Below, in pieces: positions 839 through 18,133 of a stretch of 25,976 bases of DNA. Under the pieces are notes generated by a model. It did not search any database, was not told the origin of the DNA, and saw only the letters and a list, made by a program, of their open reading frames with translations. A program made the position numbers and the translations under genes. Source of the stretch: a virus; the IMG/VR virus record IMGVR_UViG_3300048593_000331, positions 1 to 25,976 of that record; one strand, written 5' to 3'. Positions within the stretch are counted from its first letter, which is position 1. Each line of letters starts with the position of its first letter.

Positions 839-980
839 GCCCCTCTTCATCGCGCACCGGCAGCACATCGGGCACCTCGGCACGGCGGCGAACGTCCTGC
901 TGAGCTTGCCGGTCGCGGGCCAGGCGGCGCTGGTCGGCGCGGCGGGTGGCTTTGTCAGGGCGTGGCGGCTTGGGCTTCAT
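825..980 (-). CDS. Short basic hypothetical protein after the spanin (51 aa)
   Basis: An open frame starts at ATG 980, 26 nt before the end of the Rz gene, and stops at TGA 827-825. The product is strongly hydrophilic, rich in Arg, Lys, Asp and Pro (starting MKPKPPRPDK, ending DEEGRYTP). It has no signal or membrane segment. Third codon positions are mostly G or C, as in neighbouring late genes, which supports coding. There is no strong ribosome-binding site, so expression may depend on coupling to Rz. It would be the last gene of the leftward late operon. The function is unknown. Confidence 0.5.
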   Translation of the reverse strand: MKPKPPRPDKATRRADQRRLARDRQAQQDVRRRAEVPDVLPVRDEEGRYTP

Positions 981-1449
981 GGGTGGGCCAGGCTTCGTAC
1001 AGCCTCAGCGCGTCGGCGGCGTGGGCGTCAGCTGCTCGGCCCAGCTCGACAAGCTGCGCCGCACAAGCTCCGAGTAAGGCACGGGCGGGATCGGCTCCGT
1101 CAGCGCCGGCCGGGCAGGCAGGCGAACCGCCGGGCCCGGTGGTGGCGAGCTGGTCGCGCAGGCGGTCAAGCTCAGCGCGAGCACCAGCAGCAGCGCGCTG
1201 GTGGGTCTGGGTGCGCTCGGTGGCGCGGCGGGTGGCTGCATCGGCTACCTCCTGGAGTCGTGTGGTTTCGGCCTGCGCGGCCTCGATGGCGCGCAGGGTC
1301 TCGCGCTGGCTTTGCAGCTGCGCGCGGTCGTGGATGACGCGGTGCACCTGGTGCGCCAGTGTGCCGCCGATGGCGATGCCGACCAGCAGCGTGGCGGTGG
1401 TGCGGGTGGCGCTGCCGCCGGTGAGCCAGCCCAGGGCGGCGCCGATCAC
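955..1449 (-). CDS. Rz: Rz-like i-spanin (inner-membrane spanin subunit)
   Basis: This 164-aa protein has the layout of an inner-membrane spanin. A short N-terminus precedes one transmembrane anchor at about residues 16-33 (TTATLLVGIAIGGTLA), followed by a long charged periplasmic helix predicted to form a coiled coil (about 40-105), with Cys112 and Cys129 beyond it. Spanins join inner and outer membranes and drive the last step of lysis in Gram-negative hosts, after endolysin action. The assignment rests on topology and on the nested Rz1-like lipoprotein in another frame (1005-1241), a hallmark of Rz/Rz1 pairs; spanins diverge too fast for sequence recognition. ATG 1449 overlaps the upstream stop as ATGA. 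Confidence 0.82.
   Translation of the reverse strand: MIGAALGWLTGGSATRTTATLLVGIAIGGTLAHQVHRVIHDRAQLQSQRETLRAIEAAQAETTRLQEVADAATRRATERTQTHQRAAAGARAELDRLRDQLATTGPGGSPACPAGADGADPARALLGACAAQLVELGRAADAHAADALRLYEAWPTHEAQAATP
1005..1241 (-). CDS. Rz1: Rz1-like o-spanin lipoprotein nested inside Rz
   Basis: This 78-aa ORF lies wholly inside the Rz gene in a different frame. It has a signal sequence with a hydrophobic core (SALLLVLALSL) ending in a lipobox L-T-A-C, which predicts lipidation at Cys28. The mature part is proline-rich (TSSPPPGPAV, then IPPVPYSEL), as is usual for outer-membrane Rz1 subunits. It should be sorted to the outer membrane and pair with the periplasmic end of Rz across the periplasm. 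The n-region is weakly basic (one Arg), and an alternative start further upstream is possible. Full embedding is the lambda-type arrangement. Confidence 0.85.
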   Translation of the reverse strand: MQPPAAPPSAPRPTSALLLVLALSLTACATSSPPPGPAVRLPARPALTEPIPPVPYSELVRRSLSSWAEQLTPTPPTR

Positions 1450-2474
1450 GCCAGCACCTCGACATCTATGGCGCCGGTTTTTCGCCGGCCGGCGGCAGTC
1501 TGCAGCTGGGTGCGCACCTGGTAGGTGCCGGGGGCGTCGGGGTTGTCCACCGCCACCTGCACCACGCCGCCCACGTCCAGCCGGGCGTCGGCCGCAAGGC
1601 CTGCGTCGGCGCTGGTGGCCAGCAGCCCGTCGGCCACGTCGGCGGCGCCGGCCAGGTACTTGGCGGCGAAGTCCAGGTCGAACACGTCGCGGTCGGCCGT
1701 GCTGCGCAGGCGGAACGTCTTGGCCGACTGCACGGTGGCGCTGACCACCACGTCCAACAGGGCGGTGCTTTCGCGCCCGCCCGCGGTGCTGATGCGCAGC
1801 GCCACGCGGTAGGTGCCCGCCGCGCCCGTGGGCGTGACGGCCAGCACCACCACGCCCGTGGTCAGCGCAGAGCCGGGCGCCACCGATGGCGTGACGGACA
1901 CGCCGGCCGGTGCGTCCAGCGCCAGCACGGTTGCCGCGGTGTCGCCCGCGCCGGGCAGGTATTTGGCCTCCCAGTCCACCAGGATGCGCTCGGTGTCGGC
2001 CACATACAGCGGGATGGCCTTGACCGGTGCGGCCGGGTCGTCTGCGTCGGGCACGATGACGCGCACGCCATCGAAGGGCACGCGCGCGGTGTTGGCTTCG
2101 CCTGCACGGGCGGCGGGCCAGACGATGGAGCCGTCGCCAATGGCGCCGCCGGCATCCACCAAGCGCACCGCGTCGGCCGCGCCGACCAGGCTGTAGGCGA
2201 ACAGCGCCGAGCCGCCGGCGTCGGCCGTTGCAGACGCATCGGCACCAGCACCAAGCAGAAGGCCAAAAGCGATGCCGCCGCCGGCATCTGCCGTGGCCAC
2301 TGCGTCAGCACCCGCGCCGAGCGTGTAGGCGAACAGGGCAGCGCCGCCCGCGTCGGCCGTGGCTGTAGCGTCAGACCCGGCACCGAGCAGCACCGGCGCC
2401 TCAGACGACGCGCCACGCTGCACCGCAAACAGTGCCGCGCCGCCGCTGCGTTGTGGAGCAAAGACCGCAGCCAT
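1446..2474 (-). CDS. Repeat-containing fibre or fibre-associated protein (342 aa)
   Basis: The start at ATG 2474 shares one base with the stop of the hydrolase fibre gene (TGATG), so the two are probably co-translated. Residues 31-118 are four 22-residue repeats (pattern GAGADAxATADAGG followed by a hydrophobic stretch), and a degenerate unit appears before them. Residues of about 140-342 hold two related beta-rich domains of roughly 95 residues, each with a D-(W/F)-x-A-K-Y-L-x-G-A motif near its start and a G-T-Y-x-V strand near its end. This domain duplication is typical of phage fibre and tail-tip proteins. I infer a virion surface role next to the receptor-binding fibre; no exact family is recognised. 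Confidence 0.7.
   Translation of the reverse strand: MAAVFAPQRSGGAALFAVQRGASSEAPVLLGAGSDATATADAGGAALFAYTLGAGADAVATADAGGGIAFGLLLGAGADASATADAGGSALFAYSLVGAADAVRLVDAGGAIGDGSIVWPAARAGEANTARVPFDGVRVIVPDADDPAAPVKAIPLYVADTERILVDWEAKYLPGAGDTAATVLALDAPAGVSVTPSVAPGSALTTGVVVLAVTPTGAAGTYRVALRISTAGGRESTALLDVVVSATVQSAKTFRLRSTADRDVFDLDFAAKYLAGAADVADGLLATSADAGLAADARLDVGGVVQVAVDNPDAPGTYQVRTQLQTAAGRRKTGAIDVEVLA
2121..2384 (-). repeat. Four tandem 66-bp coding repeats
   Basis: Residues 31-52, 53-74, 75-96 and 97-118 of the fibre-associated protein are 22-aa units. The first three are close copies (core ATADAGG and a FAY or FGL hydrophobic end); the fourth has diverged (RLVDAGGAIGDG). The unit length is constant, so they align without gaps. 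Such in-frame repeats can expand or contract by recombination or slippage. Confidence 0.8.
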
Positions 2475-4789
2475 CAGGACACCTGCACCGGGCCGCTGAA
2501 CCCGCTGTGATCGCTGGCCGGGTTGCCATCGCTGTTGGTCACTTGCAGCCAGCCAATGCCGCCAGCCGACAGGGCGCTGTTGACCGTGATCGACAAAACG
2601 CCACTGCCATCGGTGCTTTCTGCTGTGCCCTTGTCGGTCGGGTACTCGGCAACGGGTGGCGTTGCCTGATCCCACCACGCCCACTTCAGACCCGTCAGGC
2701 TGGCTGCTGGCGTGCTGCCGTTGGTGGTCAGCGTCACCGACACCGTGCGCGTGCCAGCGGGCCGACCCTGCGCCACGGGCGTGGCAAAGCAGCGGTCAAA
2801 AAACGCCACGTACTCAGCGGGCACAAAGTGGCTGGGGTGGCCGTGGTTACCAGTGCACACGATCAGCTCAGATTCTCGGCAGCACTTTGCCACCAGAGCG
2901 GCCAGCACATCGGTGTTGTTGGCCTTGGACACAATCGTGTCGCCCGCGCTGGCGTAGAAGCGCATGGGCACATGCCGATATGCAAAGCCACCTTTTAAGG
3001 CCGGGTCCATGCCGCGCGTGCGGTTTGCATAGGTCCCTGTGCCCGTCCCGGTGATGCTGTAAGCGGTGTTGATGGACCCGGTGTAGGAACTGGATGTGTG
3101 CATCGCTCCAAGATTGCACACCGGGTAGGTGCCCAGCCAGCCAACCACCGGGAATTTACCCTGCGCCAGAGCGTTCAGGCCCGACATGCCGCCCATGCTT
3201 TGCGACCACAGCGCCACGCCCGCCACGTTGTACGTGTCGCGCAGGTGTTTTTCCAAGCCAGCCAGGTCATCCACCGCCGTCTGGTTGCCCCAGTTGTCCC
3301 CGCGCTGACGGGCACCGGCCAGGATATAGCCAGCATCCAGCAGCGCATCCACGCACCCAGCCTTGAGCGAGTCGGACAGCAGCGCCGTTTCGTTTTCACT
3401 GACGCCGTGCGTGTAGATGATGACCTTGGTCGGGTTCGCGGCGTTGTACGGATTCGCGGCGTTGGCGTTGGGCACCAACACCATGATGTTTTGGCTGTAA
3501 ATCGGGTCCGTCGTGTCAATGCGGGTGTATTTCACCGCCGCCGATGCGGTGTACGTGATGTTCGCCGGGTTGGTCAGGCCGCCGTCGTTGGTGGCGCTGA
3601 TCGTCTTGGCACCAGCCGACAAAGCCGTGTAGGTGAACGTCGCCGAGGGCGTGCCCGAGCTGATCGCCACACTGGCAGGGGTGAACGTGCCGCCCGCCCC
3701 GCCGTCTGCTGGCGTGACCGTCACCGTTCCCGTGATCGCGCCGTTGGCCCCCACCGTGAAGTTGGTGGATGGCGTGCCAGCCGTGCCCGTGTTCGGGCCG
3801 GTCATGGTCACCGCCGTGGCACCCGCTGCGCTGGTCGTGAATGCCGCACTGGTGACCACAGCAGAATCGGTGCTGGAGCCGTCGCGGTGCTGGACGTGCG
3901 CGTAATACGTGGTGCCGGCAGTCAGGCCGGTGACCGAAAACGTCTTGGAACCCGTGCTGATGATCGCCTGGCTTCCAGACCATGCCGCCGCTGTGCCGCC
4001 CGATTGCTGGCCCGCCTGAATCTCTGCCACCGTGGGCGCTGTTGCCACCGTGGAAACGATGGCGTACATCGTGCCCGTGGCGGTGTCGGTCGTCGCGCCT
4101 GCCGTGGCGGTCGTTGCACCCGTTGACGTTCCGACAGGTTCCGACAACGTGGGGCCGGGAGACGGCACGCCGGCCGAAAAGTTGTCAATGGTTGAACGGT
4201 TGGTCCCGGTGCTCTTTGCCAGCCACAGGCCCGCACGGCCCGCATCCGTCAGAGAAGAGTCGGTGGCGGTGATGATGTCCGTCTGCGTAGCGCCCCAAGT
4301 GTTGCCACCCGTCAACCACAAACTATCACTCAGCCGCTGGACGCGCCCCTTCAATGTGGTGCCCGCCACGTCCAGGGTCATCCGGTACGTAATGCCCGCA
4401 GCCGGGGTGAATGCAACGCCCGTGCCAATCTGCGTCAAGCCGCCGCCGTTGACGTACTTGTATAGCCTGACTTGGCTTGAAAACGTGATGAAGAAATAAC
4501 CCGAATTTACGGATGTGCTCATGCGAGCACCGGGGCCGATCAGCTCCGACCCGTCACCGTGGGTGTAATCAAGCGTGACCGGGTAGTCAGCAGACGAAGG
4601 AACACCCGAGGCGTAATAGTTGTGATTCTTGCCCGTCTCGGTGCTGACCAGCCGGCTGCTGGTGATCTGAGGCGCTGCGGTGTCTGACGCGCTGGCGTGC
4701 CGCGTCCACGTTGCGCCGACCTCGCCCGTGTGCGCCGTGATCAGCGTGCTGTCGGCATCGGTGTAGGTGTCGGATGCGAAGATCGGCAT
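2474..4789 (-). CDS. Tail fibre with built-in alpha/beta-hydrolase (esterase-like) domain, 771 aa
   Basis: Residues about 1-205 look like a concanavalin/LamG-type beta sandwich (YTDADSTLITAHTG, ending STIDNFSAG). Residues about 215-320 form a fibronectin-III-like module (TYYAHVQHRDG) and 325-415 an Ig-like module. Residues about 425-670 read as an alpha/beta-hydrolase: an oxyanion-type HG after a beta strand (IIYTHGVSEN, 457-466), a nucleophile elbow WSQSMGG with Ser531, a candidate Asp617 in ASAGDTIV, and candidate His649/651/654 in GNHGHPSHF. The elbow has Ser in place of the first Gly of GxSxG. A C-terminal beta domain follows. The likely role is binding and deacylating surface polysaccharide during adsorption, inferred from architecture and position. 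GGGAG-like binding sequence GGGAG lies before ATG 4789. Confidence 0.8.
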   Translation of the reverse strand: MPIFASDTYTDADSTLITAHTGEVGATWTRHASASDTAAPQITSSRLVSTETGKNHNYYASGVPSSADYPVTLDYTHGDGSELIGPGARMSTSVNSGYFFITFSSQVRLYKYVNGGGLTQIGTGVAFTPAAGITYRMTLDVAGTTLKGRVQRLSDSLWLTGGNTWGATQTDIITATDSSLTDAGRAGLWLAKSTGTNRSTIDNFSAGVPSPGPTLSEPVGTSTGATTATAGATTDTATGTMYAIVSTVATAPTVAEIQAGQQSGGTAAAWSGSQAIISTGSKTFSVTGLTAGTTYYAHVQHRDGSSTDSAVVTSAAFTTSAAGATAVTMTGPNTGTAGTPSTNFTVGANGAITGTVTVTPADGGAGGTFTPASVAISSGTPSATFTYTALSAGAKTISATNDGGLTNPANITYTASAAVKYTRIDTTDPIYSQNIMVLVPNANAANPYNAANPTKVIIYTHGVSENETALLSDSLKAGCVDALLDAGYILAGARQRGDNWGNQTAVDDLAGLEKHLRDTYNVAGVALWSQSMGGMSGLNALAQGKFPVVGWLGTYPVCNLGAMHTSSSYTGSINTAYSITGTGTGTYANRTRGMDPALKGGFAYRHVPMRFYASAGDTIVSKANNTDVLAALVAKCCRESELIVCTGNHGHPSHFVPAEYVAFFDRCFATPVAQGRPAGTRTVSVTLTTNGSTPAASLTGLKWAWWDQATPPVAEYPTDKGTAESTDGSGVLSITVNSALSAGGIGWLQVTNSDGNPASDHSGFSGPVQVS

Positions 4790-7019: not shown

Positions 7020-7413
7020 TGCCTGCCTCCATGGCTTTGGCGCGGCTGCGCACGATGCCCATGGCCAGCGGCACCAGCCACGGCCAGCCAGCACCCAGCA
7101 CGCCCGCCAGAATCCAGTCGTTTGCAAACACCGGGCCGGCGTACACGGCCAGCACCGCAGCGGCCCACGGGGCGCCAATGCCACCCAGGAAGATGCTGAT
7201 GACCGCATTGGCCAGTGCGTGTTCGCGGCTCAGGGGCCGCTTGTAGGCATAGACCACGGTGACCGCGGCGGCCCCGATGAGCCAGGGCACCGGGTCGCGC
7301 CCAAGTTGCGAAGCGGTCACGCCCGCAGCGGCCACTGTGCCTACCGTGGCGAGTGCCTGTTTGCCGTGGAAGGCCATGGCCAGGGCGACGGCGGCTTTCT
7401 GTAGCCAGCTCAT
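7009..7413 (-). CDS. Multi-span membrane protein, candidate holin (134 aa)
   Basis: The sequence is mostly hydrophobic, with segments at about 20-34, 42-57 (PWLIGAAAVTVVYAY), 66-92 and 100-121 (ILAGVLGAGWPWLVPLAMG). A basic loop (KRPLSREH) and a basic tail suggest a cytoplasmic C-terminus. Putative holins of about this size and composition are known in betaproteobacterial phages; this is recognition by pattern only. ATG 7413 overlaps the preceding stop as ATGA. Together with the next gene downstream it could form a holin/antiholin pair. Confidence 0.7.
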   Translation of the reverse strand: MSWLQKAAVALAMAFHGKQALATVGTVAAAGVTASQLGRDPVPWLIGAAAVTVVYAYKRPLSREHALANAVISIFLGGIGAPWAAAVLAVYAGPVFANDWILAGVLGAGWPWLVPLAMGIVRSRAKAMEAGNGQ

Positions 7414-7871
7414 GGCGATCCTTTCATGTGTTGTACGTCCAGTTCTTCGGCCAGCTGCTGCGCCACCAGCACGGCCAGTTGTTCGGCGGTCACGCGGCCG
7501 GTTGACTTGTCACCGGTCAGCACGTGCCGGCCGAACTCGAAGCAGTAGTCTGCCCGGCTACAGCGCACCGACACGGGCAGCACGAAGGCCAGCAGGCTGA
7601 TCCAGTCGTACCGGCGGCCCAGGCGTTGCGCAATGCGCTTGCGCGCGGTGCGTTCGTCCAGCGTGGTGGGCAGCAGCAGCCAGCCGTCTGCCTCGGTGGG
7701 CGCTTGCTCTGTGTGCACGCCATCGGCCAGGGTGCTGTGGTACAGCGCGCTGCCAATGACGATGCCCGCGTGCGGGTAGGCCGTGACCAGCCGCCAGCGA
7801 ATGAGCCTGGCGAACAGGCCGCGCAGCCCGGCCGGGTCGCGGTGGCGCAGGGCGAGGTAAACGGTGGTCAT
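7410..7871 (-). CDS. Possible permuted NlpC/P60-like (papain-fold) protein, 153 aa
   Basis: The order of motifs is reversed relative to ordinary NlpC/P60 enzymes: an early His34 in AYPHAGIVIG (the small-residue-hydrophobic context of the catalytic His strand), then YDW at 88-90, and a late Cys110 in DYCFEFG preceded by a helix. This matches the layout of the permuted papain-like YiiX/YaeF group, where the Cys motif is typically YCSE. Such enzymes hydrolyse amide or ester bonds, and the natural substrate here is unknown. There is no signal peptide. The start is ATG 7871 (MTTVYLALRHRD), overlapping the previous stop as ATGA. Without a structure comparison the enzyme assignment remains tentative. 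Confidence 0.6.
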   Translation of the reverse strand: MTTVYLALRHRDPAGLRGLFARLIRWRLVTAYPHAGIVIGSALYHSTLADGVHTEQAPTEADGWLLLPTTLDERTARKRIAQRLGRRYDWISLLAFVLPVSVRCSRADYCFEFGRHVLTGDKSTGRVTAEQLAVLVAQQLAEELDVQHMKGSP

Positions 7872-8311
7872 AGCTGCGCCGCCTGGGTGAACAGCGCGTC
7901 GAGGTCTTGCGCGGTCATGCCGATGGCGGCGGCCAGGGCCAGCAGCGTGGGGCGCGTGCGCTGGAATTCCTGGCTGTCGTCCCACTCGATCTGCACCAGG
8001 CCGCGCTGCACCGGGTCGGAAATGGCGTCGATGGCGGGCTGCACGTCCTGCAGGCGGCCGGCCAGCAGCAGCGCCTGGCGGGCCTGGCGGCGGGTGACCA
8101 CTTGCGGCACCTCGGGCGGCGCAGGTGGCTGCGGCACATAGGGTGCGGGCACCATGAGGATGGCCGCCGCGTGGATGGCGCGGCCGTGCTCGGTGTCGTC
8201 GGTGGCGCTGGCGGTGAAGGGCACCCAGCCGAACGCGGGGTGCTCGATCTCGCAGTCGATGCGGCCGTCGGCCAGGAAGCGCGGGGTGCGGATGTTGATG
8301 GTGGTGCTCAT
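7868..8311 (-). CDS. Putative tail-fibre assembly or accessory protein (147 aa)
   Basis: The N-terminal third is a small beta domain (TPRFLADGRIDCEIEHPAF), followed by a Pro-rich linker (VPQPPAPPEVPQ). The C-terminal half is a helical domain (TRRQARQALLLAGRLQDV, later IEWDDSQEFQR, then a final helix AQDLDALFTQAA). The helical part resembles the C-terminal domain often found in small proteins encoded directly after tail fibres, some of which act as fibre chaperones. It begins 10 nt after the fibre gene stop, with AAAGG five bases before ATG 8311. The chaperone role is inferred from position and pattern. Confidence 0.65.
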   Translation of the reverse strand: MSTTINIRTPRFLADGRIDCEIEHPAFGWVPFTASATDDTEHGRAIHAAAILMVPAPYVPQPPAPPEVPQVVTRRQARQALLLAGRLQDVQPAIDAISDPVQRGLVQIEWDDSQEFQRTRPTLLALAAAIGMTAQDLDALFTQAAQL

Positions 8312-8321
8312 GGGTGGCCTT

Positions 8322-8987
8322 TCAGGAAACGCGCTTCCACACGCTGGCCCGGGAGTTTTGGGTGTAGCCACACAGCATCCAGGTGCCATCGGGCGAGCCG
8401 CTGAACGCCACGCCGCTGCTGTTGACCGAGGCGTAGAACAGCGAAGACCCGGCCACCAGAGCGCCGGCAGCCGCATCGCCGCCAAAGCGCAACATGGCGA
8501 ATGTGCCAACCGCGCCCACGGGCGCCGCGGCAATGGCCGGCAGCGGGTTGGCCAGCACGGCAATGGCCTGAGCCGTGCGCAGGGGCGTCATGGCGGTGGC
8601 GTCGTCGGTTCCGGCTTCGGCCTGCGCCTGGGTGGCCTTGGTGACCGTGATCACCCGGTCAGCAGCCAGCGCACCCCCACCACTGGCCAGCCCGGCGCCG
8701 GTGACGCTGCGGCTGCAGTTGGTGGCGTCGGTCGCGCTGGCGGCGCTGCCGGTGATGCTGACGCCCCAGGTGCCCGTGGCGCCGCCGCCGTTGCGGCTGG
8801 GCACGTCCAGCGTGGTGCGGGCGGTGGCCGCGTCGGCGCTGCCCAGCAGGCCCTGCATGAAGGTGGTGACGTGGGCCACCAGCAGGTTGAACTTGTCGGC
8901 CAGGCCTTTGACCTCGGGCCGCGCGTTTTGCAGCGTGTCGGTGTCAGCGTCCAGGCTGCTGGTGGTCTGTGTCGTGGGCCAGGTCAT
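8322..8987 (-). CDS. Tail fibre-like protein (221 aa)
   Basis: The N-terminus is polar and helical (DADTDTLQNARPEVKGLADK, then a hydrophobic helix LVAHVTTFMQGLLG), suited to attachment to the tail tip. A Gly/Ala/Ser/Thr-rich shaft follows with the motif GTWGVSITGSA, common in phage side-tail-fibre shafts, and a compact C-terminal segment (GTWMLCGYTQNSRASVWKR). It starts 3 nt after the gpJ-like gene stop, the usual position for a fibre or tip extension. At 221 residues it is short for a full fibre and may be a stub onto which the larger fibre, encoded further on, is assembled; that is inference. Confidence 0.75.
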   Translation of the reverse strand: MTWPTTQTTSSLDADTDTLQNARPEVKGLADKFNLLVAHVTTFMQGLLGSADAATARTTLDVPSRNGGGATGTWGVSITGSAASATDATNCSRSVTGAGLASGGGALAADRVITVTKATQAQAEAGTDDATAMTPLRTAQAIAVLANPLPAIAAAPVGAVGTFAMLRFGGDAAAGALVAGSSLFYASVNSSGVAFSGSPDGTWMLCGYTQNSRASVWKRVS

Positions 8988-8990
8988 GGG

Positions 8991-11900
8991 TCAGATTCCT
9001 TCAATGTCAAAGTCCACCAGGGCGGGGTCGGCCAGGGTGCCGTTCAGGCGAAACTGGAAGCGCGGGCCGGTGTTGGCGCGGTCGATGCGGGTGGCCGTCC
9101 AGCTGCCGGCGGTGCTGTCCTGAATCACCGCCACGGCCTTGCGGATGACGGTGTAGGTTTTCTCCAGCGGCACGCGCACGTCGCCGGTGCCGATGCGGCG
9201 CGCACCGGTCAGGCTGGCGGGCACCACGTCGTTGATGTATTCGCGCTGCACTTCGGCGCTGACGGTGTAGGCCAGGCTGCGCAGCGTGGGCACGGCCACG
9301 CCGGTGAGCGTGACGCGCAGGCGGATGAAGCGCGCCGTGAAGGTGTTGACCACCGGCTGCCAGGCGCTCCAGGTGGTGCCGTCGGCGCTGGTGGCCAGTT
9401 CCACGGTGGCGGTGCCGTCGGCGTCGAGCTGCACGTCCACCTGGCCGGCGATGGTGCTTTCCAGGTCCAGCGCGGGGGTGGTGTAGCTGGGCGATGCCGC
9501 CGCACCGGCCGACCATGCGCCCGCGCTGGCCCAGGTGCCGGCGCTGGCCCAGGTGGCGGTGCTGGTGGCCACCAGGGCGGCGCCGATCAGCGTGAAGCTG
9601 GTGCGCGTGCCGGGCCAGGCCGGGTCGCTGGGCACCTCGGCGTACACGCTGCCGCTGCGCCGGTCGGGCAAGGTGATGCTGACCACCTTGGGCGTGCTCA
9701 GGTTGCCGCTGGTGTCGCGGCTGCGGCAGGCAAAGGTCCACGCGCCGGCCAGCGGTGCGTTGGTTTCCACCGGGCTGGCGGTGTAGTGGGTGCTGCTGTC
9801 CTGCAGGGGCAGCATGGCGTCCCAGTCAGGGCTTGGCACGGTGCCCGGGGTGTAGCGGATCTCGGCGCCCAGCCAGTCCACCGGCGGCTCGGTGGTGGTG
9901 TAGCTGTAGTTGTACTGGCGCGTGCCGTCGGGCTGGGCCAGCACGGTGAACACGTCAAACGGCGGGGGCGGCTCGCGCAGGCCCTGCACGTCGTAGTACA
10001 GGCGAAACGGTGCGCCCATGCGGGTGTCACCCCACACGCGCAGCTCCAGGTGCCAGCGTTCGTCCAGGCCGCCGCGCCAGGTCAGCGTCTGGCTGGTGCC
10101 GGTGGCCAGCAGGCGCTGGGGCGGGCTGGCCTCGCCCTCGCCCACGGCGCCCCACAGTTCGGCGCGGCGGAAGTTGCCGTCGGTGCCGAAGGTGATGGAC
10201 AGGTCGGTGTAGTAGCTGGTGCCCTGGCGGGCGAGTTCTTCGTCCACCCGCACACTGGTCACCGCCGGGGCGGTGCGCAGCAGGCTGGTGACCGGTGGCG
10301 CGGTGTAGGCGCCGGTTTCCACCATGTTCCAGAACTCGGTGGACTCTGGCACCAGGGTGAGTTCGGCCCCGTCGGCGCTGGGGCGGATGCCCACCACGCG
10401 CAGCAGCTGGCCGGGCACGGCCTTGAAGTCGTAGACCCAAAGGCAGTCGCGCGCGGGGGCGCCGGTGCCCGGCAGGGGCACGCCCGCGGGCCAGGCGGCG
10501 TCGAGTTCAATGACGCGGGCCGAGCCGGCGAAGGGCTTGACGGGGAAGACGCGCATTTGCTGTTCGCCCACCAGGCGCAGGCCGATGTAGCGGCCGGTGT
10601 AGCCGGCCGGGATGCCGCCGGGGGCGGTGTCGTCCAGCGTCAGGCGAACGGTGCCGCCCACGGTTTCGCAGGCCTGCAGGCGCCCGCTGTACCCCCACTG
10701 CGTCATGTCGTGGCTGAGCGCCACCACGCTGCCGCGCTGGTGGGTCATGTATTCCAGGTCCATGCTGCAGGTGACCGTTTTGCGCTGGTAGGCGTTTTGG
10801 GCCATGGCAAAGCGCATGAGCTTGGCGGCGTGCGCTTCGCTGCTCACGCCCACCAGCGGCTGGCGGCCGGTGGTGCGTGGGGTGATGACGCCCGGCGCCA
10901 GGGTGCGCACGCTGCGCCAGGCGGCGGCGTCGCGGTCGAACCAGGTGAACTCCAGCTCGTCGGCGGTGGGCCGGGTGTCGTAGCTCACGCCGAAGCTGCG
11001 GGCGCTGATGCTGCCCATGTTGATGACGCCGCGCACGGGGTCGGTGGCGCTGAAAAAGCCCACACCCAGCTTGCCGCCGCGCCGCGTGCGAAAACCCATG
11101 CCGGCGTAGGCCACGGCCTCCAGCAATTCTTCAATGCTGGTGGCTTCCTGCAGGAACAGGTCGAACTCGAAGCCGTTGGCCGCGCAGTGGACCATGAAGG
11201 TCTTGAGGCCTTCCACGTCAATGCGGTCGTCGCTGTAGCCCAGGCCGGCGAGCTTGCGGCCCGCGTCGTCGTAGATGCCGCGGCACAGCAGCAGGAAGAT
11301 GGCGCCGGGGTTGCACAGGCCGCTGGCGCGGTCGGTGGCGGTCACCCAGGCGCTGCCGTTCCAGTACGGCATGGGCTTGGCGCGCAGGCGGGCGTTGAGT
11401 TCGTCCAGCGCGCCGTTGAGCTGGCCGCTGGCGCGGATCTGCACCGCCAGGCGGGCCTGGCCGTTGTAGCTGGCGGTGTCGCGCTGGTAGCTCTTGAGCT
11501 GCACCCAGCTGACGGTGTTGGCGCCGCTGGTGCCGGTGTAGTCCACCGTGGCTTTGCGCATGCGCACTTCGTACTGGCCGGCGGGCACGTCCAGCTCCAC
11601 GGTTTTGCGCAGCGGCTTCTGTGTGGCGTTTTTCAGGCGCAGCACGCCGGCGGGCACCTCGGGCACCTCGGGGGTGACGACCTCGATGTAGGCGTTTTTC
11701 GATTCGGTCTCGGGGTGCGCCACGGTCACCGCCGGGGCGCCGGCCACACCGGGTGTGAACGGCAGCCAGGTGCTGCTGCCCACGGCGCGGTATTCCACGC
11801 CCACGTCCAGCGTGCGGTTGCGGTAGGCCCCGCTGCTGGTGGACACGCTGAACAGCGAGGCCTCCACATCCACCGCGATGCGCACGGTGCCCGCGCTGGT

Positions 11901-12677
11901 GGTGCGCACGGCCCAGGCGCCCGGGGCGGTGGCGGCTTCGAGCAGCTGGCCGGCCACACTGTCGACACTGGTGCCCAGTGCGGGCAGGTCGCTGTTGCCG
12001 GTGGCAAAGCCGCTGCGCAGCACCGACACGTCGGCATAGCTTTCAATGCTGGTCTGCCCGATGCGCAGGGTGTGCGCGTCGGCGCAGTTGATGCCGCAGT
12101 GGAGCATCTGCCACAGGTACTGTTCGCCGCCCTGCGTGTAGGTGTAGGGCTGGGCGGCCAGGTCGGGCACGGCGTAGGGCTCGCCCAGCACCAGGGCCAT
12201 GGGCTGGTAGGCGCGGGCCTGGTTGCGTCCCCCGCTTTGCAGGCTGTAGGTCGGGCTGGTGGTGGCCTCGGTGGGCTTGATGGCCTTGGGCGCCAGCATT
12301 TTGTTGATGATCAGCGTGCCCACCAAGCGCACGGCGGCTTGCAGCCACACGTTCATGCCTTGGGTGGCCATGGTGAGCGCCACAAATGCCACCAGGCGCA
12401 GTGCCTCGCGCTGGGGCACGCGCCGGCATTCGATGACGTGGCCGTGCCGCGGCTTGACGCGGGCCCAGTGCATTTCGTGCACCAGCACGCCGCCAATGGT
12501 GACCACCCAGCACTGGCCGGGCTCCACACCGTGGCGGGCCAGGAAGCTGGCCAGCGTTTCACCCGGGCGCAGGTCGGCGGCGTGGTCGTCCAGCACGCGC
12601 TGGCCTTGCAGGGTCAGCGGGTGCGGCGTCACCACCAGGGCGGTGGTCGGGCGATGAATGGCGGGCGTCAGTTCCAT
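8991..12677 (-). CDS. J: gpJ-like tail tip / host specificity protein (1228 aa)
   Basis: This is the largest gene and occupies the lambda J position after the NlpC/P60 gene. Residues about 1-95 look like a small beta-grasp domain (ETLASFLARHGVEPGQC then VTIGGVLVHEMHW), the type found in tail proteins of the gpI group. A hydrophobic stretch follows (about 100-130). The central part contains the tip-attachment region (SLQSGGRNQARAYQPM, later YDDAGRKLAG and a helix ATSIEELLEAVAYAG), and the C-terminal third carries fibronectin-like modules (residues near DGTRQYNYSYTTTEPPVDW). The protein should form the trimeric tip that seals the tube and contacts the receptor. The start at ATG 12677 (MELTPAIHRP) overlaps the upstream stop by 10 nt. 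Confidence 0.9.
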   Translation of the reverse strand: MELTPAIHRPTTALVVTPHPLTLQGQRVLDDHAADLRPGETLASFLARHGVEPGQCWVVTIGGVLVHEMHWARVKPRHGHVIECRRVPQREALRLVAFVALTMATQGMNVWLQAAVRLVGTLIINKMLAPKAIKPTEATTSPTYSLQSGGRNQARAYQPMALVLGEPYAVPDLAAQPYTYTQGGEQYLWQMLHCGINCADAHTLRIGQTSIESYADVSVLRSGFATGNSDLPALGTSVDSVAGQLLEAATAPGAWAVRTTSAGTVRIAVDVEASLFSVSTSSGAYRNRTLDVGVEYRAVGSSTWLPFTPGVAGAPAVTVAHPETESKNAYIEVVTPEVPEVPAGVLRLKNATQKPLRKTVELDVPAGQYEVRMRKATVDYTGTSGANTVSWVQLKSYQRDTASYNGQARLAVQIRASGQLNGALDELNARLRAKPMPYWNGSAWVTATDRASGLCNPGAIFLLLCRGIYDDAGRKLAGLGYSDDRIDVEGLKTFMVHCAANGFEFDLFLQEATSIEELLEAVAYAGMGFRTRRGGKLGVGFFSATDPVRGVINMGSISARSFGVSYDTRPTADELEFTWFDRDAAAWRSVRTLAPGVITPRTTGRQPLVGVSSEAHAAKLMRFAMAQNAYQRKTVTCSMDLEYMTHQRGSVVALSHDMTQWGYSGRLQACETVGGTVRLTLDDTAPGGIPAGYTGRYIGLRLVGEQQMRVFPVKPFAGSARVIELDAAWPAGVPLPGTGAPARDCLWVYDFKAVPGQLLRVVGIRPSADGAELTLVPESTEFWNMVETGAYTAPPVTSLLRTAPAVTSVRVDEELARQGTSYYTDLSITFGTDGNFRRAELWGAVGEGEASPPQRLLATGTSQTLTWRGGLDERWHLELRVWGDTRMGAPFRLYYDVQGLREPPPPFDVFTVLAQPDGTRQYNYSYTTTEPPVDWLGAEIRYTPGTVPSPDWDAMLPLQDSSTHYTASPVETNAPLAGAWTFACRSRDTSGNLSTPKVVSITLPDRRSGSVYAEVPSDPAWPGTRTSFTLIGAALVATSTATWASAGTWASAGAWSAGAAASPSYTTPALDLESTIAGQVDVQLDADGTATVELATSADGTTWSAWQPVVNTFTARFIRLRVTLTGVAVPTLRSLAYTVSAEVQREYINDVVPASLTGARRIGTGDVRVPLEKTYTVIRKAVAVIQDSTAGSWTATRIDRANTGPRFQFRLNGTLADPALVDFDIEGI

Positions 12678-13123
12678 GCGTAGAAGCCCTCGAACTTCAT
12701 GCCCCAGGCCTGCAGGTCGGCCAGCGGGTCCATGCGCACGCCGCCGGTGGCGTAGCTGTTGTGCAGCACCCACACGTCGCCCCGCATGATGGCCACGGTG
12801 CCGATGTGCCAGTGCTCGTCGCCTTTGTCGTTGACGTCGCTGAACAGCACGGCCGCACCGGTGAAGGGCACGGCCACGCGGTGGGCCAGGGCGTCGCGGT
12901 GGCGCAGCACGGCGGCGCGCTGCCCCGCCCCGCCACGGGGGTGGGTGGGCAGGTGCACGGCGCGGCCAAACACCTCGGCCTGCACCAGCACAGCCAGGTC
13001 GGCGCAGTCGAACGCGCCCACTTCGTAAGCGCGGCCCACGTAGCCCTGCAGCGCGCGCCAGACGGGCAGCGCGGTGTCGGCCAGCGGGTGGGCGGTTGAT
13101 GCGTCGGCGGTCATGGCGGTCAT
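12668..13123 (-). CDS. NlpC/P60-family tail peptidase (gpK-like), 151 aa
   Basis: A canonical NlpC/P60 order is visible: nucleophile Cys40 in AFDCADLAVL, then a basic loop with a hydrophobic strand (PFTGAAVLFSDV), and His106 in HWHIGTVAIM, followed by the strand WVLHNSYATGG with a polar residue (Asn122) that could complete the site. Enzymes of this family cut peptides in the cell wall; in lambda the corresponding gpK works in tail-tip assembly and DNA entry. Unlike lambda gpK it lacks an N-terminal Mov34/JAB domain. ATG 13123 overlaps the upstream stop as ATGA, and Met4 at 13114 is a possible alternative start. Confidence 0.87.
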   Translation of the reverse strand: MTAMTADASTAHPLADTALPVWRALQGYVGRAYEVGAFDCADLAVLVQAEVFGRAVHLPTHPRGGAGQRAAVLRHRDALAHRVAVPFTGAAVLFSDVNDKGDEHWHIGTVAIMRGDVWVLHNSYATGGVRMDPLADLQAWGMKFEGFYAWN

Positions 13124-16837: not shown

Positions 16838-17466
16838 TCAGGTCTTTCTGATTTCGCTTTTGATGTGTTCTTGCAGTTCCAGGACGAGAGAGAGGTCGTC
16901 CACTTCGTGCAAGGCGGCGTACAGCGGCAGCCGCTCGGGGTGCCATCCCTCGCACCAGGACCAGCAGTGCAGGGCCTGGGCGGTGTCGTTGGTCAGTGGT
17001 GGCGGCGGGGCAATGAGGTCGCCAAAACCAGCCTCGCGGAGCTTTTGCGCATCCCCCAGCGATTGCTCGTGGGCAATGCGCTCGCTCAGTTTTTTTCTGC
17101 GGCCTCCAGCCGGTCGTTGCGTTCCTGCGCTTTGGCCACAAAGGCTTCCAGCAGGGCAGCAGCCGCTTGGGGGTCGTTGTCCAGCAGCAGCGCGGCCGCA
17201 CCCGGCACCAGCTCGGCCAGATCAGAACCGCCGCCGGGCGCCAGCTGTTCGTGCGTCACGCCAGACCATCCGACCAAAGAAGCCTCCAGCAGGCGCCGGG
17301 TGAGCACCGCTGGCAAGGCGGCATCGCCGTCCGACCGGCTGCGCAGCACTTCCACCTCGGTTTCGTGGCGGGTTGGCAGGCGAAGGGTGTAGCTGCACGC
17401 TCCAGCCTGCACAGTGAACTCGCGCGCGGCCTGCGCCTTGCGGCGCAGTTCGTTGATGTCGGTCAT
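16838..17466 (-). CDS. gpGT-like tail assembly chaperone, long form by -1 frameshift (209 aa)
   Basis: Ribosomes shifting back one base at the slippery heptamer (17095-17089) leave the short-form frame before its stop and continue in the -1 frame for 83 more codons to a TGA at 16840-16838. The extension starts LSERIAHEQSLGDAQKLREA, contains LIAPPPPLTND and CWSWCEGW, and ends EIRKT. It has no start codon of its own with a ribosome-binding site at the junction, so it should be made only as a fusion. In lambda the G and GT forms coat the tape measure during tail assembly, GT recruiting tube subunits. Two genes between tube and tape measure in overlapping frames is the conserved arrangement. Confidence 0.9.
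17058..17095 (-). promoter_or_regulatory. Programmed -1 ribosomal frameshift signal
   Basis: On the mRNA strand the codons GCA GAA AAA AAC TGA contain the heptamer A AAA AAC in the correct phase (17095-17089). After a 6-nt spacer (17088-17083) comes a stem-loop: arm AGCGCATTGC (17082-17073), loop CCACGA, arm GCAATCGCT (17066-17058). The stem pairs 9 bp with one bulged C. Slippery site, spacer of 5-9 nt and a following stem form the standard arrangement for -1 shifting. The zero-frame stop sits in the spacer. Confidence 0.88.
17086..17466 (-). CDS. gpG-like tail assembly chaperone, short form (126 aa)
   Basis: This is the unshifted product, starting at ATG 17466 and ending at TGA 17088-17086 right after the slippery run. 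It is a small helical protein (start TDINELRRKAQAAREFTVQ, middle AVLTRRLLEASLVGWSG, end helix LLEAFVAKAQERNDRLEAAEKN). By analogy with lambda gpG it is the abundant form that binds the tape measure and keeps it soluble. It follows the tail tube gene by 16 nt. The ribosome-binding site is weak, which would keep its level below that of the tube protein. Sequence identity with lambda is not claimed; the call is by position and frameshift. Confidence 0.85.
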   Translation of the reverse strand: MTDINELRRKAQAAREFTVQAGACSYTLRLPTRHETEVEVLRSRSDGDAALPAVLTRRLLEASLVGWSGVTHEQLAPGGGSDLAELVPGAAALLLDNDPQAAAALLEAFVAKAQERNDRLEAAEKN

Positions 17467-17482: not shown

Positions 17483-18133
17483 TCAGCTGGCGTAACGGGT
17501 GGGCTCGGCCAGGGTGCTCATGCTCAGGGTGGACGTGAGCGGGCTGTTGGCGTTGATGTTGGGCACCTTCTGCAGCGACCAGTAGGCATTGGCCACCAGG
17601 CGGCTGTTGTTCGGGAACACGAAGCGCACCGCGGCGGGCGTGGAACTGTCGCTGGCGGTCTGCACCGGCGCGTACCAGGCCAGGGCCGGGTCGTCGAACA
17701 CGGTGAGGGTGATTTCCTGCGGGCTGCGGGTAGTGGGGATCTGCTTTTGCGTACGGTCGGTGATGGACGTGATGTCGGCGTACTGCTGATCGCCACCGGA
17801 GCTGCCGACGTTCTGCACCTGGGTGATTTGCGTCCAGGCGGTGATGCGGCGCACCGAGCCCGTGCCAGTGCCGGCGGGGAAGTTGGTGGTGCTGGTGGTG
17901 TTGAAGCCTTCGAGCGTCACGTCGTTGGTGGAAACGGCCGACACGCGGAAGATGCGGCCGGTGGCGAGGTCCCAGCCCGAGGTGAATTCAACGAAGTCAC
18001 CCACCACGATGCCGTGGGCGGCTGCAACAGTGATGACACAGGCCGCGGCGTTGGTGGCGGCGGTGACGGCCGACGCGGTGGCGTAGGTGGATGCGATGGC
18101 GACTTGCGTGCCGGTGGCGAGGGTGATAGCCAT
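17483..18133 (-). CDS. Major tail tube protein (216 aa)
   Basis: This beta-rich, Thr/Ser/Ala-rich protein (start MAITLATGTQVAIASTYA; core AAHGIVVGDFVEFTSGWDL; DRTQKQIPTTRSPQEITLTV) sits exactly where the tube gene is expected, between the tail-completion genes and the chaperone pair. It polymerises into stacked hexameric rings around the tape measure. ATG 18133 is preceded by AGGAG at about 8-nt spacing, one of the strongest ribosome-binding sites in the window, as fits an abundant protein. An intrinsic terminator lies directly upstream of this binding site. There is a single Cys (residue 32). Confidence 0.88.
   Translation of the reverse strand: MAITLATGTQVAIASTYATASAVTAATNAAACVITVAAAHGIVVGDFVEFTSGWDLATGRIFRVSAVSTNDVTLEGFNTTSTTNFPAGTGTGSVRRITAWTQITQVQNVGSSGGDQQYADITSITDRTQKQIPTTRSPQEITLTVFDDPALAWYAPVQTASDSSTPAAVRFVFPNNSRLVANAYWSLQKVPNINANSPLTSTLSMSTLAEPTRYAS

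Follow-up and report, generated by a model that had tools for sequence, protein, structure and literature searches.

Organization of the tail gene locus

The DNA analyzed here, referred to as the window, is a stretch of 25,976 bases with a G+C content of 68% from the viral record IMGVR_UViG_3300048593_000331. Its minus-strand genes run in the order terminase, portal, Clp-like protease, major head protein, head-tail adaptor, neck, tail terminator, major tail protein, a G/T open reading frame (ORF), tape measure protein, minor tail proteins, central fiber (J-like) and lysis genes, and the window derives from a long-tailed phage of the HK97/lambda type. The G/T ORF occupies exactly the slot usual for the tail assembly chaperone in such phages. 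Searches of the window for Rfam families and tRNA genes were negative. The features of the G/T locus are listed in Table 1.

Table 1. Features of the G/T locus and its flanking genes in the window.
Feature	Coordinates	Strand	Basis or remark
Major tail protein gene	17483..18133	-	phrog_584, E 2e-71; immediately upstream of G
G, zero-frame ORF, 126 codons; tail assembly chaperone	17086..17466	-	ORF, predicted fold and gene position
GGAGG, possible Shine-Dalgarno-like stimulator (unproven)	17103..17107	-	sequence
Slippery heptamer A AAA AAC	17089..17095	-	sequence
Zero-frame stop TGA	17086..17088	-	sequence; abuts the 3' end of the heptamer
T, -1 frame extension, 83 codons and stop	16838..17089	-	conserved HCWxWCxGWxPE motif
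Bulged stem of 9 pairs, noted earlier	17058..17082	-	not conserved
3' hairpin of 14 pairs	17047..17081	-	likely stimulatory structure
Tape measure protein gene, 707 aa	14711..16834	-	phrog_1716, E 3e-27

Several genes outside this locus are also of note. A Rz-like spanin gene (955-1449, minus strand) has a weak PHROG spanin match, as does an ORF nested within it in another frame (1005-1241, minus strand), which resembles an Rz1 lipoprotein with a signal ending LTAC. Near the lysis genes, a 191-aa ORF (7410-7985, minus strand) matches phrog_1128 (enoyl-CoA hydratase-like, E 7e-15) without a Pfam match, and the enoyl-CoA hydratase-like name looks doubtful. Past the tail module, a 771-aa protein (2474-4789, minus strand) contains an alpha/beta hydrolase-like stretch (WSQSMGG), has no Pfam match, and could represent a tail protein with depolymerase or esterase activity. 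An open frame of 1509 codons on the plus strand (8154-12683), antisense to the J-like fiber gene, most probably reflects codon usage at high G+C.

The slip site and its reading frames

The 3' end of G reads GAA AAA AAC TGA, with the protein ending in EAAEKN, and the heptamer is in phase (X XXY YYZ) with G. A -1 slip on it leads into CTG AGC GAG CGC and onward through a frame that stays open for 83 codons, up to a TGA at 16840-16838, and that has no ATG or GTG among its first 40 codons. The original prediction had described the exact phase, the length of the -1 frame and the lack of a start codon in the extension, and all three are confirmed. Two finer points of the layout are revised. The T stop, placed 4 nt before the tape measure start, does adjoin that ATG, although the gap is 3 nt (TCC) and a value of 4 is obtained only by counting from the last base of the stop. 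The zero-frame stop, assigned to the spacer, does lie right after the heptamer but is inessential, as its position in the relatives indicates (see below).

Because AAAAAAC occurs three times in the window, compared to 0.93 expected, the mere presence of the heptamer means little; what matters is its phase, where it lies and how well it is conserved. A GGAGG located 7 nt upstream of the heptamer could, on the strength of its sequence, add a Shine-Dalgarno-like push. Across the relatives described below the GGAGG shows no excess beyond codon and amino-acid constraint (codon null, mean z -0.11).

Conservation of the slip site in relatives

Direct protein searches of viral contigs with G or T revealed no relatives, and the fused G-T protein has no match among 50,697 GenBank phages. 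Searching with the major tail protein instead led to 25 loci, several of them carrying an alignable G-T pair, and in a second step a G-T alignment of the window and four of those loci yielded 68 viral loci together with one locus in a Tepidimonas metagenome-assembled genome (MAG), the only one given by the scan of genome contigs. Loci were picked by similarity of the G and T proteins and kept if an in-phase heptamer lay no more than 90 nt from the G stop; L093 alone was lost under this rule, being a fragmentary match without an in-phase heptamer at its first G stop. The 47 distinct sites with an in-phase heptamer fall into 36 clusters (85% identity over 57 nt).

An in-phase heptamer and an open -1 frame are present in all 36 clusters, each kept only if the heptamer is within 90 nt of the G stop. 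The heptamer is AAAAAAC in 32 clusters, GGGAAAC in two, and AAAAAAT and AAAAAAG in one each. This comparison had been proposed as a check on the signal, with a disrupted heptamer or a closed -1 frame in related phages as the evidence that would count against it; such cases were looked for, and there were none among the sites with a readable G end. Conservation of the amino acids does not explain the heptamer, because only 9% of wobble positions in the genes of the relatives are A, with GCA accounting for 11% of alanine, AAA for 31% of lysine and AAC for 66% of asparagine codons; GCA-AAA-AAC is thus expected from codon usage in approximately 2% of cases (0.11 x 0.31 x 0.66).

The zero-frame stop directly follows the heptamer in 31 of the 36 clusters and comes 1 to 21 codons later in the other five, and it therefore lies outside the core signal. 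At L029, L043, L047, L085 and L089, where it is found 1 to 21 codons past the heptamer, gpG would gain a short extra tail.

G and T are each conserved as proteins in the relatives, on both sides of the frame break. This bears on whether the break stems from faulty sequencing or assembly, or from gene decay, with one frame broken by a homopolymer indel. A homopolymer in a metagenome-derived contig is a typical spot for such errors, but the 36 clusters, which come from different contigs and one MAG, all share the break at the same site, and we regard this explanation as vanishingly improbable. It is also very unlikely that T is a separate gene, expressed from its own start or by termination-reinitiation without any frameshift. 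The close overlap of the frames is like that of translationally coupled genes, but the T frame of the window lacks a start codon over the stretch noted above, none of the 36 clusters has an ATG or GTG among its first nine T codons, homology in T starts at the heptamer, and a separate gene would leave the in-phase heptamer unexplained. A further alternative is transcriptional slippage, in which RNA polymerase would insert or omit an A while transcribing the A-run, so that G and T share a frame in some of the mRNAs. The seven A's at the window site (G AAAAAAA C) are compatible with this, but the run comprises only six in 28 of the 36 clusters and three in the two GGGAAAC clusters, and the hairpin that we find to be selected at ribosomal spacing (see below) is needless for polymerase slippage. 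We consider this, too, a highly improbable account of the locus, and favor slippage of the ribosome at the heptamer.

A selected RNA hairpin downstream of the heptamer

The stem originally proposed, with 9 pairs, a bulge and a 6-nt spacer, does exist, albeit at only -10.3 kcal/mol compared to -24.1 kcal/mol for an alternative hairpin of 14 pairs with one 1x1 mismatch, one bulge and a GCAA loop (GCGCAUU-g-CCCACGA-GCAA-UCG-c-UGGG-g-GAUGCGC), which is separated from the heptamer by 7 nt. The two share bases and are mutually exclusive. A 58-nt fold of the site has a minimum energy of -25.8 compared to a mean of -14.2 in dinucleotide shuffles (z -4.2), with an ensemble frequency of 0.72. Folding of a longer stretch that begins beyond the heptamer gives an unremarkable overall value (z -0.87), and the folding signal is therefore local.

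Folding in the relatives was evaluated against a null in which synonymous codons in the T frame were re-sampled 300 times per cluster, preserving both the protein and the codon usage. At the site the mean z is -2.1 and 72% of the clusters fall below -1.5, with about 10 of the 36 having no clear folding excess (z above -1.5). By comparison, 108 control windows further down T have a mean z of -0.14, with 6% below -1.5 (Mann-Whitney p 6e-13 versus the site). RNA folding immediately 3' of the heptamer is thus under strong selection.

The two candidate structures were compared on 22 ungapped homologous sites. For the 14-pair hairpin, 68.5% of cells are paired, compared to 33-45% when it is slid by 1 to 3 columns, and nine of its pairs have changes on both sides; its covariation score of 0.209 (0.137 in shuffles) is reached by none of 500 shuffles. 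A lower-stem pair at columns 19/45, for example, is A-U at six sites, C-G at six and G-C at two. For the 9-pair stem 41.9% of cells are paired, and its covariation score is reached by 56 of the 500 shuffles. The covariation that the original prediction anticipated in related phages is thus found in the lower stem of the 14-pair hairpin, while the stem for which it was anticipated does no better than shuffles.

RNAalifold gave no single consensus structure for all 22 ungapped homologous sites because the stem register moves, and some relatives (such as L053-L055 and L062) use a shifted register. Applied to 11 sites with an unshifted register, which were selected in part by eye and are offered as supporting evidence only, it returned an 8-pair lower stem. 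Across the aligned sequences a hairpin is thus kept at this spacing, though the pairing partners are not always the same.

Sister tail modules, which have a related major tail protein and another type of G, keep the heptamer and often have no hairpin (mean z -1.2, strongly uneven). Modules of the other G type, with AAAAAAC or GGGAAAC, include L003, L005, L010 and L025 as against L018, L019 and L022-L024; some have a strong hairpin and others have none.

It could be argued that the frameshift is real and the hairpin not a stimulator at all, being a by-product of conserved amino acids and of high G+C. The base composition of the window (68% G+C), the clusters without a clear hairpin, and the frequent absence of a hairpin from sister modules that keep the heptamer would fit such a view. 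It does not account for a site that stands out under a null preserving protein and codon usage, or for changes on both sides that keep the pairs, and we think it unlikely. A stimulatory role for the hairpin is the better reading.

Predicted structures of the G and T proteins

Neither G nor T of the window has a significant Pfam, PHROG or PDB sequence match, although for five of the 36 G members there is a weak match to phrog_313 (tail assembly chaperone; best E 5e-5). AlphaFold2 models were built from the 36-member alignments, with a pLDDT of 95.3 for G and a mean pLDDT of 94.8 for T, which is modeled as all helical with four helices. In the viral structure library BFVD the G model matches annotated tail or tape measure chaperones at a probability of 0.99-1.00, among them those of Proteus phage PM135, Acinetobacter phage Loki, Vibrio phage JSF10, Xanthomonas phage Suba and Caulobacter phage CcrColossus. 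A Foldseek search restricted to the PDB returned nothing significant for either G or T. Ranked by Z-score, the top four PDB chains for the G model are 3klu (YqbN, 6.5), 5ir0 (5.5), 3fgx (RBSTP2171, 5.3) and 2ob9 (HK97 gp13, 5.0), scores that are moderate and agree with the gene position. G aligns with YqbN, RBSTP2171 and HK97 gp13 over about 92-98 residues (Z 5.0-6.5), albeit at 8-14% sequence identity and an rmsd of 4-6 A. The predicted fold of G matches that of tail assembly chaperones, including HK97 gp13.

Comparison with known frameshift systems

The slip heptamer of phage lambda is G GGA AAG, in contrast to A AAA AAC here. In both systems the gene precedes that for the tape measure protein, the shift is in the -1 direction with the slip site near the end of G, and T exists only as an extension. 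They differ in that no sequence similarity to database families was detected for the G and T of the window, and that a strong 3' hairpin is conserved in the family of the window. G/GT frameshifting is widely conserved across long-tailed phages (PMC5009743), and that paper cites Levin 1993 and Xu, Hendrix and Duda 2004, 2013 and 2014 for lambda. It summarizes the lambda roles as binding of the tape measure protein by the G part and of the major tail protein by the T part (PMC5009743).

AAAAAAC has been reported as the tail-chaperone slip site in phiCbK-group Caulobacter phages (PMC3556154), in the chaperone gene of Acinetobacter phage Loki (PMC5313236) and in HCTV-2 (PMC5009743), and GGGAAAC is given as the chaperone-gene heptamer in Colossus (PMC3556154). 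The likeness between the window and the phiCbK group and Loki extends from the heptamer to structure, the Loki and CcrColossus chaperones being structural matches of G. They are unlike in that sequence similarity to G was undetected in the GenBank phage collection, and in that the excerpts of PMC3556154 and PMC5313236 contain no mention of a downstream hairpin.

A 3' hairpin is a textbook stimulator, as in Escherichia coli dnaX, where an A-rich heptamer is followed by a hairpin at short spacing (PMC3711429). The window shares this arrangement, with its hairpin a few nucleotides after the heptamer. A GGAGG is present upstream in the window, but as a Shine-Dalgarno-like element it is unsupported by conservation. 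The dnaX heptamer is A AAA AAG, and the gene is unrelated. Frameshifting in two HK97-like chaperone genes has been measured at 6-7% (PMC3711429). In E. coli, A AAA AAC is far less shift-prone than A AAA AAG (PMC5009743), and the efficiency of the frameshift in the host of the window phage is therefore uncertain.

A probable programmed frameshift in a divergent chaperone family

We conclude with high confidence that programmed -1 ribosomal frameshifting at this locus yields two tail assembly chaperones that share a single start. Five lines of computational evidence support this reading, which is that of the original prediction: the gene order, the phase of the heptamer, the conservation of heptamer and -1 frame across the 36 clusters, the selection for downstream folding, and the predicted chaperone fold. 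The locus has the features of the G/GT class, namely a gene between those for the major tail protein and the tape measure protein, an in-phase slip site, and an open, conserved -1 frame. The class itself is already known, and the window is a further member of it. The present analysis adds a divergent, unannotated family with joint conservation of the heptamer, the -1 frame and a hairpin, as well as the corrected identity of the hairpin.

Analogy with the characterized systems suggests how the slip might proceed and what its products might do. Most ribosomes would read G through to its TGA and release a 126-aa gpG. A minority would stall against the hairpin, 7 nt past the heptamer, as it resists unwinding, leaving the heptamer in the P and A sites; both tRNAs would then shift back, from AAA and AAC onto AAA and AAA, and reading would resume at CTG AGC, giving a 209-aa gpGT. 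By the lambda precedent, gpG would coat the tape measure protein, and recruitment of the major tail protein would fall to the T portion of gpGT, such that the tail tube polymerizes around the tape measure.

Ordinary annotation of phages of this kind would lack both the chaperone and its extension, because G and T of the window have no significant Pfam or PHROG match and T lacks a start codon of its own. The 47 aligned sites make it possible to study the evolution of a stimulatory hairpin within an overlapping coding region, and to ask under what conditions heptamers like A AAA AAC require one. We see roughly even chances that this divergent family of tail chaperones, represented so far only by uncultivated phages and one MAG, has a 3' hairpin at fixed spacing as a standard part of its G/T signal, with a register that drifts within the coding region, and that the heptamer of the sister modules often works without one.
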